From the NCBI RefSeq assembly GCF_025643595.1, contig NZ_CP102826.1, positions 992,001 to 1,056,000 of the forward strand: DNA of 64,000 nt. The letters run 5' to 3'. This document shows, piece after piece, positions 21,580 to 47,387 of this stretch. Position 1 is the stretch's first letter. The number at the start of each line of letters is the position of its first letter. Both the position numbers and the translations under genes were made by a program. The DNA comes from Saccharopolyspora rosea. Its GTDB lineage: Bacteria; Actinomycetota; Actinomycetes; Mycobacteriales; Pseudonocardiaceae. The notes beneath the pieces were generated by a model. The model ran no database searches and was not told the origin of the DNA. It saw nothing but the letters and a program-made list of their open reading frames with translations.

Positions 21580-22656
21580 CTACAGGGACCAGAGGTACGG
21601 GTGGGTCCCCTGCTCGCGCGCGGAACCGTCGCGCGGGGTGAACCACTGGTCGAAGGCCAGGCCGCGGGAGCGCAGCTCGGCTTCCAGCTTGCCGACCTGC
21701 TCCACGGTCTCCAGCTCGCCGTCGTCGGCCAGCGGCAGCGCGACCTCGTAGAGCTCCTCGTGATCCAGGTCGGCGAAGGCGCGGTCGGCGAACGCCCCGA
21801 ACGCGGCCTCGCTGGTCTCCCAGTCCATCAGCTCGGCCGCCTCCAGCATCACCCGCGCCTCGTTGACGACCAGGCGCAGTCCGAGGGACTCGGCGACGGT
21901 GCGCGGCGGGGTCCACGCCGGTTCGGTGAGCCGGACCGCCACCGCGGCCGTGGCCAGCAGGAACGACCGGGCGAACAGCGAGTCGTACCGGTGGTCGTAG
22001 CAGGGCGGCAGCTCCTCCAGGACCAGCAGGCCGACCGCGTCGGCGACGGTGGCGTTGTTGACCGCCAGCGCGAGCTCGTCGTAGAAGATCTCGTCGGTGA
22101 CCACGCGGACGGCGTGCACCAGCGCCCCGGCCGCGAGCCGTTCGCCCTCGCCCGGCTGGCCGCCGCGCCCGAACGCTTCGGGTCCGAACGCCCGCAGCCG
22201 GGCTGCCAGCGAGCCGAGGCGTTCGCGCCAGTGCTCGGCGTCCAGGGCGGTTTCCTCGACCTCCTCGGCGGCGCCGTCGAGGGCCTCCTCGACGGCCGCT
22301 TCGAGCTCGTCGTCGGCCTCGGCCAGGCGGCGGTTGAAGTCGTCCTCGGTGATGCGCACCTCGGAGTGGGCCACGGCCCACCCGGTGAGCACGTCGCTCT
22401 CGCCGATCAGCTCGTCGAGCACCGCAGCGGCGGCCTGCTCGGCGGAGCTCAGCGACGGGGCGTCGACGGCGAGGACGACGCTGGCCCCGCGGGGATGCAC
22501 CTCGATGCGGTAGTCGAGGACGTCGATGTCGTCCGCGACGCCTTCGACCATCGCGAGGTGGCGGTCCAACACCGCCGCGATCCCTTCCTGCTGCAGCGCG
22601 TCGAGCTCGCTCACCGCCACCGGTGGTTCGAGCTCCGCTGTCACCGCGTAGTCCAC
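21580..22656 (-). CDS. Hypothetical protein, acidic, helical
   Basis: 358 aa from the GTG at 22656 with GAGGAG upstream. I do not recognise the family. The N-terminal part alternates beta and alpha segments (DDIDVLDYRIEVHPRGASVV), followed by a highly acidic helix-rich part with DELEAAVEEALDGAAEEVEE, then a middle and C-terminal region with many short acidic helices (RVVTDEIFYDELALAVNNAT). No membrane segment, signal peptide or metal motif is seen. It is convergent with the polyamine operon and divergent from the ribokinase gene, so has no operon partner. The assignment is only that a real protein is made. Confidence 0.7.
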   Translation of the reverse strand: MDYAVTAELEPPVAVSELDALQQEGIAAVLDRHLAMVEGVADDIDVLDYRIEVHPRGASVVLAVDAPSLSSAEQAAAAVLDELIGESDVLTGWAVAHSEVRITEDDFNRRLAEADDELEAAVEEALDGAAEEVEETALDAEHWRERLGSLAARLRAFGPEAFGRGGQPGEGERLAAGALVHAVRVVTDEIFYDELALAVNNATVADAVGLLVLEELPPCYDHRYDSLFARSFLLATAAVAVRLTEPAWTPPRTVAESLGLRLVVNEARVMLEAAELMDWETSEAAFGAFADRAFADLDHEELYEVALPLADDGELETVEQVGKLEAELRSRGLAFDQWFTPRDGSAREQGTHPYLWSL

Positions 22657-22758
22657 CGCGTCTTGCCTCTCCTCGCTGGTTGGACGGCATGGTACGTCGT
22701 CGCCGGACGCGCGACCCGGTCGGCGGGGCCGACCGGGCACGCACCTCCATCAGCGATG

Positions 22759-23730: not shown

Positions 23731-24078
23731 TCAATGGGCGTTGTCGTAGGCCTCGACGACATCCGCCGGAATGCGCCCGCGGTCGGAAACCTTGAGGCCC
23801 TGTTCCCGGGCCCATTCCCGAATGGCCTGGTTGCGTTCCCGGTCGGCGGCGGTGGGCGCCGGCGACGGCGACTTGCCGGGCTTGCCCGCGGGGCGCTTGC
23901 GCCCCCCGGTGCGTCGGGCGCTGGCCACGAAAGACGCCAAGGAGTCGCGGAGTTTCGCGGCGTTGTCGTGGGACAGGTCGATCGTGTAGCTCACCCCGTC
24001 CAGGGCGAACTCGACCGTGGTGTCCGCTACTGAGCCGTCGATATCGTCGACCAGCTGGACGGTGACTTTCTGCGCCAC
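23731..24078 (-). CDS. lsr2: Lsr2 family nucleoid-associated protein
   Basis: 115 aa, the usual length. N-terminal oligomerisation domain [20 protein letters not shown] and [15 protein letters not shown]; basic linker; C-terminal DNA-binding domain with the RGRIP minor-groove motif ([30 protein letters not shown]). Lsr2 binds AT-rich DNA and silences foreign genes in actinomycetes. It is divergent from a second Lsr2-type gene across 354 nt of comparatively AT-rich sequence, which could be an autoregulatory site. Start: ATG at 24078. Confidence 0.95.
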
Positions 24079-24432
24079 TGTGAACCCTCGATTCCGGATC
24101 GTAATTGGCGTTGGTCTTCGCGCGGCCTACGGCGAAGGCGAGCGAACAATAAACGATGGCCGCAAGAATGTTCCACCCGCGGTCAGGGTTTGCAGCTGTG
24201 CTCCAGATTACTTTCCCTTTGTGTTCGGGGTGGTTACTGAGCGTTTCCGCCGGGCAGTGTTGTGCGCCGGATACGTGACCCGCACGGCGGTTATGAGTGG
24301 GATGCCGTGCTGCTCTATGGTTGACGCGAGACAACGGCGACGCCGCGTGCTACAACGTGGTCATGGGCTCGCGGTAGTCTTACCTGCAAGTGTCGCGGAT
24401 CGAGGCGGGGCACGTTCCCGAGACAGGTGATC
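24079..24432. other. AT-richer divergent region between two Lsr2-type genes
   Basis: 354 nt without a supported gene. It is visibly richer in A and T than the flanks, with runs such as AACAATAAACGATGG and TTACTTTCCCTTTG. It must contain the start signals for both genes. Lsr2 prefers AT-rich DNA, so self-control here is plausible but inferred. A TTGACG lies near 24322 but lacks a well-spaced -10. Confidence 0.5.
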
Positions 24433-24885
24433 ATGGCCGAGCGGATTCAGGTCGAACTCGTCGACGACATCGACGGTTCCCCAGCGCAGCACACCGTCAC
24501 CTTCGCGCTGGACGGCGTGACGTACGAAATCGACCTGAACGAACGACATGCTCGTCAACTGCGTTCGGTGTTCGACCGCTACATCGAGCACGCGCGCCAG
24601 CCCAAACCCGAACCGCAGACCGGCCCGCGCCAGCAGGAGCGCGATGACCGCCGCGTCCGGCAGGCGAACAAGCAACTCACCGAGCAGATTCGCGGCGCGG
24701 CCCAGCGAACCCGCGAGCACCTGAACAAGAAGGCCCGCGACGAGGCCGAGCACGCCGCCCCCGCCGAGCCCGGACAGCCCGAGCAGGCGCTGTTCGAGCC
24801 GCCGTCGGACAACCAGGCCGGGCAGCAGGAATCGCCGCGCGTTCCGGCGGTGTTGCTGCCGCAGTTCTCCTCGGCGGTGGACTGA
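24433..24885 (+). CDS. Lsr2-like protein lacking the DNA-binding domain
   Basis: 150 aa. Residues 1 to about 60 match the Lsr2 N-terminal dimerisation domain closely ([40 protein letters not shown]), including the DDIDGS core. The rest is not the RGR domain but a charged, proline- and glutamine-rich tail (QQERDDRRVRQANKQLTEQI, then alternating Ala, Glu, Pro, Gln) with no minor-groove motif. It could form mixed oligomers with Lsr2 and alter silencing; that is inference. The ATG follows AGGTG. It is divergent from the full-length Lsr2. Confidence 0.82.
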   Translation: MAERIQVELVDDIDGSPAQHTVTFALDGVTYEIDLNERHARQLRSVFDRYIEHARQPKPEPQTGPRQQERDDRRVRQANKQLTEQIRGAAQRTREHLNKKARDEAEHAAPAEPGQPEQALFEPPSDNQAGQQESPRVPAVLLPQFSSAVD

Positions 24886-24970
24886 ACGTCGCCGCAGCGG
24901 CCTATGGACAGGCCGCCCCGCAGACCATACGGTTTCGGCGTTCGGCTGCCGAGATCATCGGGAGGCGGGT

Positions 24971-26578
24971 GTGGCGGCACGGTACGGGTGGTGCGCCTCG
25001 TTGGCCGTGCTCGCCGTCGCCGCGACGGCCTGCGCTCCGCTGGTCGACGTCGACCGGACGGCCGCCCGGGTCCGCTCCTCGGTCCAGGCACCGACGGTGC
25101 GCGGCGGCGAAGCCGTCATCGCGCTGGACCAGGAGCCCGACCGGCTCGACCCGACGCTGGGCACCACGCTCGCCGGCCGCCAGGTGTTCGGGAGCATGTG
25201 CGAGAAGCTCTACGACGTCGACGAGCACAGCCGCGTGGTGCCCCAACTCGCCGCGGCGATGCCGCGGGTTTCGCCGGACGGCCGCGAGTTGACGATCCCG
25301 CTGCGCCGCGGCGTCCGGTTCAACGACGGCACGCCGTTCGACGCCGCAGCGGTCAAGAAGAGCCTCGACCGGCACCGGGAACTGCCCGGCTCGCAGCGCC
25401 GCACCGAGCTCAAGGCCGTCCGCTCCGTCGAGGTCGTCGACCCGGACACCGTCCGGCTGCGGCTGTCCGAGCCGTATTCGCCGCTGCCCAGCCTGCTGGC
25501 CGACCGCGCCGGGATGATCATGTCCCCGGCCAGGCTCGACGAACTCGGTGAGCACTTCTCCGACGCCCCGGTGTGCGTCGGCCCGTTCAGCTTCGTCGAG
25601 CGCGTCGCGCAGGACCGGATCGTGTTGCGGCGCAGCGAGTTCTACTACGACCGGGACCGGGTGAAGCTCGACCGGCTGGTCTACCGGGCGGTGCCCGACG
25701 ACAACATCCGGATGGCCAACCTCCGCTCCGGCGAGTTCGACGTGGCCTGGAAGGTCGGTACGCCGGACGTGCCGATCGCGTCGCGGGAAAAGGGCATCGT
25801 GGTGCTCAACCAGCCTTCCGTGCAGTACATGGGAATCACGGTGAACATCGGCAACGTCGACGGGAGACCGGGCCGCGTGCCCGGCCCGCTCGCCGCTGAT
25901 TCCCGCGTGCGCCAGGCGTTTTCGCTGGCGATCGACCGGCGCACGCTCAACCGCATCGCCTTCAACGGCCTGTACCGCACCGCGTGCGGGCCGATCCCGC
26001 CGAACAGCGAGTTCGCCACGCCGAAGACGCAGGAGTGCCCGCCGCACGACGTCGCCGGTGCCCGGCGGCTGCTGGCCGAAGCCGGGGTGCGCACCCCGCT
26101 CCACGTCGACCTGACGCTGCAGAACAGCGTCTCCGCGCTGCGCGTCGGCCAGGTGGTCCAGGCGATGGCCGCCGAAGCCGGGTTCGACGTGGCGCTGCAC
26201 CCCACCGAAGCGACGGCCGAGATCGCGGCGGGCAAGAAGGGCCGTTTCCAGACCATGCTGATCGGCTGGTCCGGCCGCCCCGACCCGGACGGCAACATCT
26301 CCGGCATCCAGACCCTCGGCGGCGCGCAGAACTACTCCGGCTACTCGACCCCGGAGACCGACGCGCTGATCAAGCAGGCCGCGGCCGAGGCCGACCCGGC
26401 CCGGCGTCGCGAGCTCTACGAGCGGATCGTCGAGCAGCTCCAGCAGCGCAACAACGTCGTCTACCTCTACCGGGAGCAGTACTACACGGCGCACACCAGC
26501 GACATCGCCGGCGTTGCGGTCTTCCCCGACGGGATCATGCGGATGAAGACCGCCGGACACCTGGCGACCGGGAGCTGA
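24971..26578 (+). CDS. ABC transporter substrate-binding lipoprotein (dipeptide/oligopeptide, SBP_bac_5)
   Basis: 535 aa from a GTG with GGGAGG upstream. The N-terminus is a lipoprotein signal ending at a lipobox (VAATAC), so the mature protein would be anchored at Cys21 outside the membrane. The body has typical peptide-binding motifs: LDQEPDRLDPTLG, the RRGVRFNDGTPFDAAAVKKS segment, and VRQAFSLAIDRRTLNRIAF. The substrate, peptide, nickel or opine, is not distinguishable. First gene of a four-gene import operon, directly followed by permeases and a double ATPase. Confidence 0.9.
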   Translation: MAARYGWCASLAVLAVAATACAPLVDVDRTAARVRSSVQAPTVRGGEAVIALDQEPDRLDPTLGTTLAGRQVFGSMCEKLYDVDEHSRVVPQLAAAMPRVSPDGRELTIPLRRGVRFNDGTPFDAAAVKKSLDRHRELPGSQRRTELKAVRSVEVVDPDTVRLRLSEPYSPLPSLLADRAGMIMSPARLDELGEHFSDAPVCVGPFSFVERVAQDRIVLRRSEFYYDRDRVKLDRLVYRAVPDDNIRMANLRSGEFDVAWKVGTPDVPIASREKGIVVLNQPSVQYMGITVNIGNVDGRPGRVPGPLAADSRVRQAFSLAIDRRTLNRIAFNGLYRTACGPIPPNSEFATPKTQECPPHDVAGARRLLAEAGVRTPLHVDLTLQNSVSALRVGQVVQAMAAEAGFDVALHPTEATAEIAAGKKGRFQTMLIGWSGRPDPDGNISGIQTLGGAQNYSGYSTPETDALIKQAAAEADPARRRELYERIVEQLQQRNNVVYLYREQYYTAHTSDIAGVAVFPDGIMRMKTAGHLATGS

Positions 26579-30998: not shown

Positions 30999-35864
<4,866 letters not shown>

Positions 35865-35978
35865 GAAGACGCTACGTGCCCACTATACGATTCTGGGACA
35901 ACAACCCAGGGGTTGTTGTTGATAGTTGAATAGTCACCATGGTTTTCCCCACCCGGTGTGTGGGTGGGGGTGTGGGTT

Positions 35979-36095
35979 GTTGGTGGTTTGAGCGGGGAGG
36001 GTACGCCCGGTCCCATTCCGAACCCGGTAGCTAAGTTCCCCAGCGCTGATGGTACTGCACTCGGTAGGGTGTGGGAGAGTAAGACACCGCCAACA
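35979..36095 (+). rRNA. 5S ribosomal RNA
   Basis: About 117 nt with the conserved CGGTCCCATTCCGAACCCGG and GATGGTACTGCACTCG segments. The terminal stem GTTGGTGGT/ACCGCCAAC is complete. It follows the 23S by 114 nt. Confidence 0.95.
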
Positions 36096-46353: not shown

Positions 46354-46509
46354 CGCCACCCACTCTAATGGCCGACCAAGGGTCCCCTTTCCGGCGTGTG
46401 GGTCTCTCCACGCTGTGAAATCGATCGCTTTCGGTGGGTGAGTCGGGCGAAAGCCACCCGGCGGCGCGGGTGTGGTCCCCCGTAGCGGCGATTGTTAGGT
46501 TGGTCCCAG

Positions 46510-46590
46510 TGACGCGGGGTGCCCGGAGTTCCCGGGCTGAGAACAGACCCGTCGAACCTGACCTAGCTCGCACTAGCGGAGGGAACGTCA
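46510..46590 (+). promoter_or_regulatory. TPP riboswitch (THI box) controlling thiD
   Basis: The conserved thi-box elements are present in order: GCGGGGTGCCC, GGGCTGAGAACAGACCC, GTCGAACCTGACC, TAGCTCGCACTAGCGGAGGGA. The P1 stem pairs TGACG (46510-46514) with CGTCA (46586-46590), so it contains the first base of the start codon, and the Shine-Dalgarno GGAGGGA (46578-46584) lies inside the aptamer. Binding of thiamine pyrophosphate should hide the ribosome site and stop translation of thiD, with no separate expression platform. Confidence 0.94.
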
Positions 46591-47387
46591 TGATTCCGAA
46601 CGTGCTGACGATCGCGGGCACCGATCCGAGCGGTGGTGCCGGTGTCCAGGCGGATCTCAAGGCGTTCTCCGCGAACGGCGCCTACGGGATGTCGGTGCTG
46701 ACGGCGCTCGTCGCGCAGACCACCACCGGGGTGTCCGAGGTGCACGAGATCCCGCCGGAGTTCGTGACGTCCCAACTGGTCACGCTGCTCGACGACGTGC
46801 GGGTCGACGCGGTCAAGATCGGCATGTTGGCCAACGCCGAGGTGATCCGGGCGGTGATCGGCGCGCTGGACCGCTACGCGCCGCCGTTCGTGGTGCTCGA
46901 CCCGGTCATGGTCGCCAAGAGCGGGGACCGGCTGCTCGCCCCGGAGGCGGTCAGCGCGCTGCGCGACGAACTGCTGCCCCGGGTCGACCTGATCACGCCG
47001 AACCTGCCCGAGGCCGCCGACCTGCTGGGCGAGGCGGAGATCGAGGACCCGGCGGGCATGCCCGGGCAGGCCGACCGGCTCGCCGGGCTCGGCGCCAAGC
47101 ACGTGCTGCTCAAGGGCGGGCACCTGCGCGGCGAGTCCAGTGTGGACCTGCTGTACGGCGACGGGATCTCGGAGTTCCTCTCCAGCGAGCGGGTCGACAC
47201 CACCAACGACCACGGCACCGGTTGCACGTTGTCGGCCGCGATCGCGGCGCTGCGCCCGCAGCGACCGGACTGGATCAGCGCGGTCCGCGAGGCCAAGGAC
47301 TACCTGACCGAGGCGTTGCGCGCGTCCGCGCGGCTCGACGTCGGTCGCGGCCACGGGCCGGTGCACCACTTCCACCGCTGGTGGTGA
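46590..47387 (+). CDS. thiD: Hydroxymethylpyrimidine/phosphomethylpyrimidine kinase
   Basis: 265 aa, start at the ATG inside the riboswitch region (SD GGAGGGA). Family motifs: LTIAGTDPSGGAGVQADLKA at the N-terminus, AVKIGMLANAEVI, FVVLDPVMVAKSGDRLL and the C-terminal DHGTGCTLSAAIAA. It phosphorylates HMP and HMP-P in thiamine synthesis or salvage. It is followed after 33 nt by TenA, which produces HMP from degraded thiamine, so the pair is a salvage unit under TPP control. Confidence 0.95.
   Translation: MIPNVLTIAGTDPSGGAGVQADLKAFSANGAYGMSVLTALVAQTTTGVSEVHEIPPEFVTSQLVTLLDDVRVDAVKIGMLANAEVIRAVIGALDRYAPPFVVLDPVMVAKSGDRLLAPEAVSALRDELLPRVDLITPNLPEAADLLGEAEIEDPAGMPGQADRLAGLGAKHVLLKGGHLRGESSVDLLYGDGISEFLSSERVDTTNDHGTGCTLSAAIAALRPQRPDWISAVREAKDYLTEALRASARLDVGRGHGPVHHFHRWW

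Follow-up and report, generated by a model that had tools for sequence, protein, structure and literature searches.

A natural CTD-less Lsr2, here termed Lsr2T, is encoded in Saccharopolyspora rosea divergently from a full-length Lsr2 paralogue, Lsr2B, and is conserved both in its dimerisation domain and in parts of its unusual tail. We propose, at an even chance, that Lsr2T is a dedicated Lsr2 partner subunit, which would co-assemble with Lsr2, leave the complex with fewer DNA-binding arms and hold another protein by means of a helix and a C-terminal tag. The gene pair lies in a stretch of 64,000 nucleotides, hereafter the window, whose numbering is used throughout (Table 1).

Table 1 Features of the lsr2B–lsr2T locus and the evidence on which each assignment is based
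Feature	Position	Strand	Basis
lsr2B, full-length Lsr2 paralogue (dimerisation and RGR DNA-binding domains)	23731..24078	-	PF11774 and PF23359
Divergent intergenic region, 354 bp, 60.2% GC	24079..24432	.	Base composition; 21-gap alignment; main-locus length 354-364 bp in 22 genus genomes
Conserved block GAACAATAAAC (letters of the plus strand), putative lsr2B -10 region	24144..24154	-	Invariant ACAATAA core in the gap alignment
Possible lsr2T promoter GAGACA, 17 nt, TACAAC (by eye)	24328..24356	+	Conserved in the gap alignment; absent from the sigma-70 scan
20-bp leader CGTTCCCGAGACAGGTGATC, with likely Shine-Dalgarno, directly 5' of lsr2T	24413..24432	+	27/27 exact matches in 61 relatives end one base before the lsr2T start
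lsr2T, encoding a 150-aa Lsr2 without CTD; GTG at 24427 as alternative start	24433..24885	+	PF11774 only
Lsr2T residues 1-57, Lsr2-type dimerisation domain	24433..24603	+	PF11774; match to Lsr2 structure PDB 4e1p, E 1.7e-10; pN/pS 0.30
Single long predicted helix, Lsr2T residues 65-106	24625..24750	+	AlphaFold2, block pLDDT 89 (71-80), 91 (81-90)
Helix core NKQLTEQIRGAAQRTRE, residues 79-95, nearly invariant in genus	24667..24717	+	24-sequence alignment; residues 76-97 pN/pS 0.18
Pro/Gln/Glu-rich disordered linker, residues 107-136	24751..24840	+	Low pLDDT; residues 98-136 pN/pS 0.84
C-terminal peptide VPAVLLPQFSSAVD, residues 137-150	24841..24882	+	Invariant residues, motif counts, pN/pS 0.30
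rRNA operon downstream of the pair, lsr2T strand, syntenic neighbour	30999..36095	+	Rfam

Lsr2B, a protein of 115 aa with a GTG start, carries both the PF11774 dimerisation domain (residues 1–58, E = 3.7e-29) and the PF23359 DNA-binding domain (residues 78–114, E = 1e-19). Lsr2T starts with ATG and matches PF11774 over residues 1–56 (E = 3.3e-25), its score of 87.9 bits lying above the curated cut-off of 29.6; the Pfam search found no PF23359 in it and its translation holds no RGR, whereas PF23359 is present in the divergent partner. An earlier note on this DNA had described a divergent Lsr2 pair, one member of which keeps the dimerisation domain and lacks the RGR DNA-binding end, and both this description and its coordinates and strands are borne out. 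A GTG at 24427, two codons upstream of the lsr2T ATG, would give an ORF of 152 aa. AGGTGATCATGGCC is conserved even in the two most distant genera, so either start codon may be the one used. Lsr2T as a whole is acidic, with a median net charge of −9 across 55 sequences (range −15 to +3). The S. rosea genome holds three Lsr2 domains, those of Lsr2B, Lsr2T and a housekeeping Lsr2, the last of which follows an ORF that we take to encode lysyl-tRNA synthetase.

All 22 Saccharopolyspora genomes searched carry Lsr2T. A model of the tail alone matched 51 of 390 genomes of the family at E 0.01; two weak partial matches (G157, E = 0.002; G158, E = 0.0008) were discounted, so that 49 genomes, from 9 of the 46 genera, remain, with Halopolyspora, Halosaccharopolyspora and Actinopolyspora among the relatives. 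No Lsr2T was found outside the family in a 298-genome sample of the order, where every one of the 12 matches fell within it. Judged from these sequences, Lsr2T is not a stray truncation, because 49 of 390 family genomes and the entire genus possess it.

A full-length Lsr2 lies divergent from Lsr2T, 190–432 bp away, for 52 of the 55 distinct proteins, a count that takes only Lsr2T with a P-x-F end and thereby omits one variant (L030) whose divergent Lsr2 is broken; protein classes, for this count as for the tree below, were sorted by letter patterns. The three Lsr2T without a divergent Lsr2 belong to G007, G015 and G020 as additional copies, each of these genomes also having a pair, and when loci are matched to genomes all 49 have at least one lsr2B–lsr2T pair. 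Additional pairs occupy other sites in G015, G018 and G020. The earlier note had raised the questions of whether the truncated form recurs in other Pseudonocardiaceae and whether it is always divergent from Lsr2; the answers are that it is conserved there, and that it is nearly always so arranged. In Saccharopolyspora spinosa, degenerate tandem lsr2T copies (L079, G020:C1:1707236-1709375) lie ~6 kb from an intact pair.

Around the pair, the usual gene order runs from polyamine genes through a hypothetical gene and a PfkB kinase gene to lsr2B and lsr2T, after which come, in some genomes beyond a peptide ABC operon, the rRNA genes. These follow on the lsr2T strand in at least 14 genomes, S. rosea included, and most other loci have a short flank. 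The contig ends 0.8–1.5 kb past lsr2T in 14 of 30 related loci, which is consistent with a repeated rRNA operon at that position. The adjacent PfkB kinase gene is partial or missing in several relatives. In two genomes (G044, G063) the five flanking genes (three polyamine genes, the hypothetical gene and the PfkB kinase gene) were not detected around the pair in the 19 kb examined, and the ~9 kb downstream showed no rRNA genes; the divergent pairing persists there despite the altered neighbourhood. A 386-aa protein without a Pfam match (21583–22740) adjoins the pair at all 34 main-locus loci compared and is absent at G044 and G063. A TPP riboswitch is also present in the window, at 46505–46602.

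The earlier note had characterised the end of Lsr2T as a charged Ala/Pro/Gln tail. That a tail stands in place of the DNA-binding domain is correct, but two strongly conserved blocks lie within it. Among 24 genus sequences, V140, P143, F145, S146, S147, A148 and D150 are invariant at the C-terminus, where the consensus is VPAVxLPxFSSAxD; across nine genera (16 sequences) the tail retains an invariant skeleton of R, T, I, R, A and R, followed by V, L, P, F, S and A. Codon comparison of 21 sequences (20 from the genus and one relative; L011 and L016 were omitted from the 22 main genus copies) gave pN/pS values of 0.295 for residues 1–57, 0.462 for 58–75, 0.179 for 76–97, 0.840 for 98–136 and 0.297 for 137–150. 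By this measure the helix core is more tightly constrained than the dimerisation domain, the last 14 residues are about equal to it, and the linker drifts. The tail is thus, as far as sequence constraint goes, not featureless, its helix core and end peptide being constrained like the dimerisation domain.

Structural modelling with AlphaFold2 (25 sequences) gave an Lsr2-type sheet and helix, then the long helix, then a low-confidence coil, in what is a modest single-chain model (mean pLDDT 66.7, pTM 0.26). Foldseek against the PDB returned 4e1p as the best match at E 0.02 and nothing at 0.001 or better. A DNA-binding fold hidden in the tail, the prospect that the earlier note had named as fatal to its reading, was not detected by Pfam, NCBIfam, PHROGs, AlphaFold2 or Foldseek against the PDB. 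The helix segment is mildly basic, with a net positive charge in all 55 sequences (median +3, range +1 to +10), so weak DNA binding by this segment is possible. A sliding-clamp-like reading of LPLF was also considered and set aside: the window copy and many others have LPQF or MPQF, without the Gln that would be usual.

At 60.2%, the GC content of the gap between the genes is below the 70.5% of the window. In a scan with 354-bp windows, 8.3% were as low in GC as the gap, nearly all of them within the gap or the region of the rRNA operon; about this level is reached at only three places, namely the gap, the surroundings of 1251, and the rRNA operon including its leader. Only two runs of five or more A/T bases occur in the gap, both short. 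Of the earlier proposal that this is an AT-rich Lsr2 target, the dip in GC stands, but it is moderate, and the sequence lends the proposed target little support. Targets of the Lsr2-like CgpS are described as having a drop in GC content in common (PMC7002338). The feedback that the same note envisaged, by Lsr2 on the pair, likewise draws little support from the sequence itself but is plausible by analogy, since Lsr2 is described as having a site at its own promoter in Streptomyces venezuelae (PMC6584129) and as repressing a paralogue in M. smegmatis (PMC8125055).

Alignment of 21 gaps revealed conserved blocks by both starts and a variable middle, and the longest element conserved between genera is the 20-bp leader directly 5' of lsr2T. 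A search of 61 relatives with the leader CGTTCCCGARACAGGTGATC, allowing up to 2 mismatches, matched 26 genomes. The exact matches number 27 in 25 genomes, all abutting the lsr2T start, one of them at a degenerate copy; among the inexact ones, one with 1 mismatch and two with 2 mismatches precede lsr2T copies, and six with 2 mismatches lie elsewhere. In the two most distant genera the leader is not conserved. A coding role for it was discarded: two relatives (L066, L072) have a 1-base gap, so the leader is probably untranslated. Its predicted fold is no better than that of shuffled sequences (z = 0.47), and a stem that might hide the Shine-Dalgarno has a 3' side that is nearly invariant in the gap alignment, so covariation is uninformative. 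A sigma-70 scan of 24000–25000 found no promoter. Within the gap, the partly conserved repeats GATTAC, GGTTAC and GGTTAT at 24206, 24232 and 24289 may constitute an operator.

To place the two proteins among their relatives, a tree was built from 163 dimerisation domains; it is weakly resolved because the alignment has 58 columns, and its bootstrap is unsettled. The degenerate tandem copies (L079) and a broken Lsr2 (L236) were left out of this tree and of the motif counts given below. Forty-three Lsr2T rows form one branch (support 100/99), joined by the Lsr2T variant of L030 and by a long-branch row (L230). The partner Lsr2 also cluster, with 36 of 39 rows on one branch (97/88); the other three, from genera g24 and g43, lie elsewhere, and the tree therefore leaves a single common origin of the pair unproven.

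The end tag is the most interesting part of the pair. We defined an end motif, F-(S/L)-(S/A/G) in the last 18 residues, and judged CTD presence by HMM. In a set of loci collected via matches to Lsr2T and PF11774, and thus not random, with the 29 best-scoring loci (L248–L276) standing for sequences outside the family, the motif is present in 65 of 68 CTD-less Lsr2, in none of the 126 CTD proteins without an extension and in 6 of the 16 with one; as background, 1 of the 40 ORFs of the window besides lsr2T has it. Two of the three CTD-less proteins without it come from a single genome (G038) and end APVFQPPQR, and the third is a broken Lsr2 (L030, minus strand). Given their kinship, the 65 motif-bearing proteins represent a handful of lineages, mainly the Lsr2T and K-tail clades, with few independent events, and not 65 events.

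The K-tail type is a second CTD-less Lsr2 form, found in other Pseudonocardiaceae genera (L091, L099, L100, L101, L187/L240, L190, L223, L224), in which the dimerisation domain is followed by a Lys/Ala/Thr-rich, HU- or histone-like tail of 140–290 aa that ends VPQVTFSAAK or similar; its eight sequences form one branch of the dimerisation-domain tree (100/100). L227 is an Lsr2 paralogue without a CTD, and in L225, L226, L188, L090, L192 and L093 a tag sits in an extension beyond the CTD; the tags at or near the ends of all these proteins are a terminal FSG, or FSSEG/FSSHG. L089 and L052/L118 (G038) lack a CTD and are laid out like Lsr2T, with IRxLxER as a possible helix and APVFQPPQR as the end, and no divergent Lsr2 lies beside them in the flanking stretches examined.

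Put more broadly, and tentatively, the CTD-less Lsr2 of the family may be chromatin adaptors: several lineages (Lsr2T, K-tail, L227) would separately have lost the DNA-binding domain yet kept a similar end tag, approximately (V/P)xVx(0-3)FS(S/A/G), as a docking peptide that places one common partner on Lsr2 filaments. If this reading is true, the Lsr2 layer is a platform, beyond its role as a silencer alone. The end tag offers a handle for fishing out a partner of this layer.

For Lsr2T itself, the partner-subunit model would operate as follows. The dimerisation domain would allow co-assembly with Lsr2B, the product of the divergent gene, and possibly with the housekeeping copy too; such mixed complexes are likely to exist. 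Each Lsr2T that enters a complex would mean one AT-hook domain fewer, so mixed dimers would bridge DNA and silence genes less well, an outcome whose chances we place a little short of even. The conserved helix and the end tag, with the disordered linker between them, would tether an additional protein to the Lsr2 filament; recruitment of this kind we consider slightly favoured. A modulating subunit fits an acidic protein with a conserved dimerisation domain and no detected DNA-binding fold, and an adaptor role fits the conserved helix and tag.

Several other explanations were weighed against this model. Lsr2T might only poison Lsr2 oligomers in the manner of H-NST, with a partnerless tail that serves solubility or stability. 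H-NST and an N-terminal fragment of CgpS are precedents for such an effect, and a DNA-binding-dead Lsr2 interferes with the wild type, but a passive tail would need no such constraint as is seen in the helix core and the last 14 residues, and lsr2T is carried by every genome of the genus, in contrast to the island-borne H-NST. We regard a plain dominant negative as unlikely, the conserved helix and end tag suggesting a role beyond passive poisoning of Lsr2. Alternatively, Lsr2T could still bind DNA, using its long helix rich in Arg, and so move Lsr2 to other sites. MSMEG_1060, which lacks Q/RGR, nevertheless binds DNA and coats the nucleoid, and the helix segment of Lsr2T is net basic in every one of the 55 sequences; the protein as a whole, however, is acidic, neither a DNA-binding family nor a DNA-binding fold was detected in the searches above, and the six helix positions invariant across nine genera are three Arg and three non-basic residues, which makes DNA coating improbable.

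The remaining explanations concern the neighbourhood and the origin of the gene. The pair could serve the adjacent rRNA operon, or growth-rate control, and not the silencing of foreign DNA, as its recurrent position upstream of rRNA genes, in some genomes with the peptide transporter operon between, would allow. The pair is nonetheless kept in the two genomes where the ~9 kb downstream showed no rRNA genes, and neighbourhood alone carries little information, so that we rate this role as very improbable. That Lsr2T is the relic of a decaying duplicate would agree with its loss of a domain relative to Lsr2 and with the degenerate tandem copies of S. spinosa, but its presence throughout the genus, together with pN/pS values of 0.18–0.46 outside the linker, argues against chance or decay and renders a relic scarcely credible. 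The partner-subunit model, if Lsr2T joins Lsr2, would provide these actinomycetes with a built-in, inherited means of tuning xenogeneic silencing. Such tuning would be relevant to the persistent silence of antibiotic clusters; in Streptomyces, antibiotic production is reported to rise with a DNA-binding-dead Lsr2 (PMC6584129).

Truncated silencer paralogues are already known as a kind, and as a natural CTD-less Lsr2, Lsr2T seems to be new; no earlier work on CTD-less Lsr2 was recognised in the open-access literature among the matches listed. Table 1 of a 2019 review gives truncated derivatives for H-NS and Rok and enters "unidentified" for Lsr2 (PMC6936261). H-NST, a truncated H-NS of pathogenic E. 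coli, is a precedent for the weakened silencing that the earlier note expected of mixed oligomers (PMC7074111, PMC6936261), and Lsr2T shares its layout, with the dimerisation part kept and the DNA-binding domain absent. H-NST, however, belongs to the H-NS family and is island-borne, whereas Lsr2T belongs to the Lsr2 family, is encoded divergently from a complete Lsr2 and has a conserved helix as well as a conserved end tag; with its conserved neighbourhood and its presence across the genus, lsr2T does not have a horizontally acquired island as its carrier. Overexpression of the CgpS N-terminal fragment is described as derepressing silenced prophage genes (PMC7074111). The fragment is comparable to Lsr2T as an Lsr2-like N-terminus, but it is man-made, whereas Lsr2T occurs naturally, as a gene product with a tail of its own. 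The Lsr2 variant R82A is reported to be dominant negative (PMC6584129), and CTD-less or CTD-dead silencer subunits also appear as weakening precedents in PMC8612146.

Short Lsr2-like proteins of phages form a further point of comparison. The 70-position model phrog_6509 matches Lsr2T residues 2–60 (E = 6e-20), and among the matches listed (20 of 100 records) no phage match spans more than 43% of Lsr2T. None of the 100 matching phage records covers 80% of the query, so the tail was not found in them, and no Lsr2T was found in viral contigs or proviruses in a scan reaching close relatives only. With its 150 aa and conserved tail, Lsr2T differs from a short phage protein consisting of the dimerisation domain only.

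Further parallels come from actinomycetes. The N-terminal domain of Lsr2 is described as interacting with the AKKA-repeat tail of HU (PMC6936261), a feature that the tail of the K-tail type may recall. LsrL of Streptomyces is likewise a second actinomycete Lsr2 paralogue, but is similar to Lsr2 from end to end and so, by its description (PMC6584129), nearer to lsr2B than to lsr2T. MSMEG_1060 of Mycobacterium smegmatis shares with Lsr2T an Lsr2-like N-terminal domain and the lack of Q/RGR, and its hetero-oligomers with Lsr2 have been suggested by the authors (PMC8125055). It is set apart by its description there as a protein with a basic tail that binds DNA and coats the nucleoid, whereas Lsr2T is acidic, divergently paired and without a detected DNA-binding fold.
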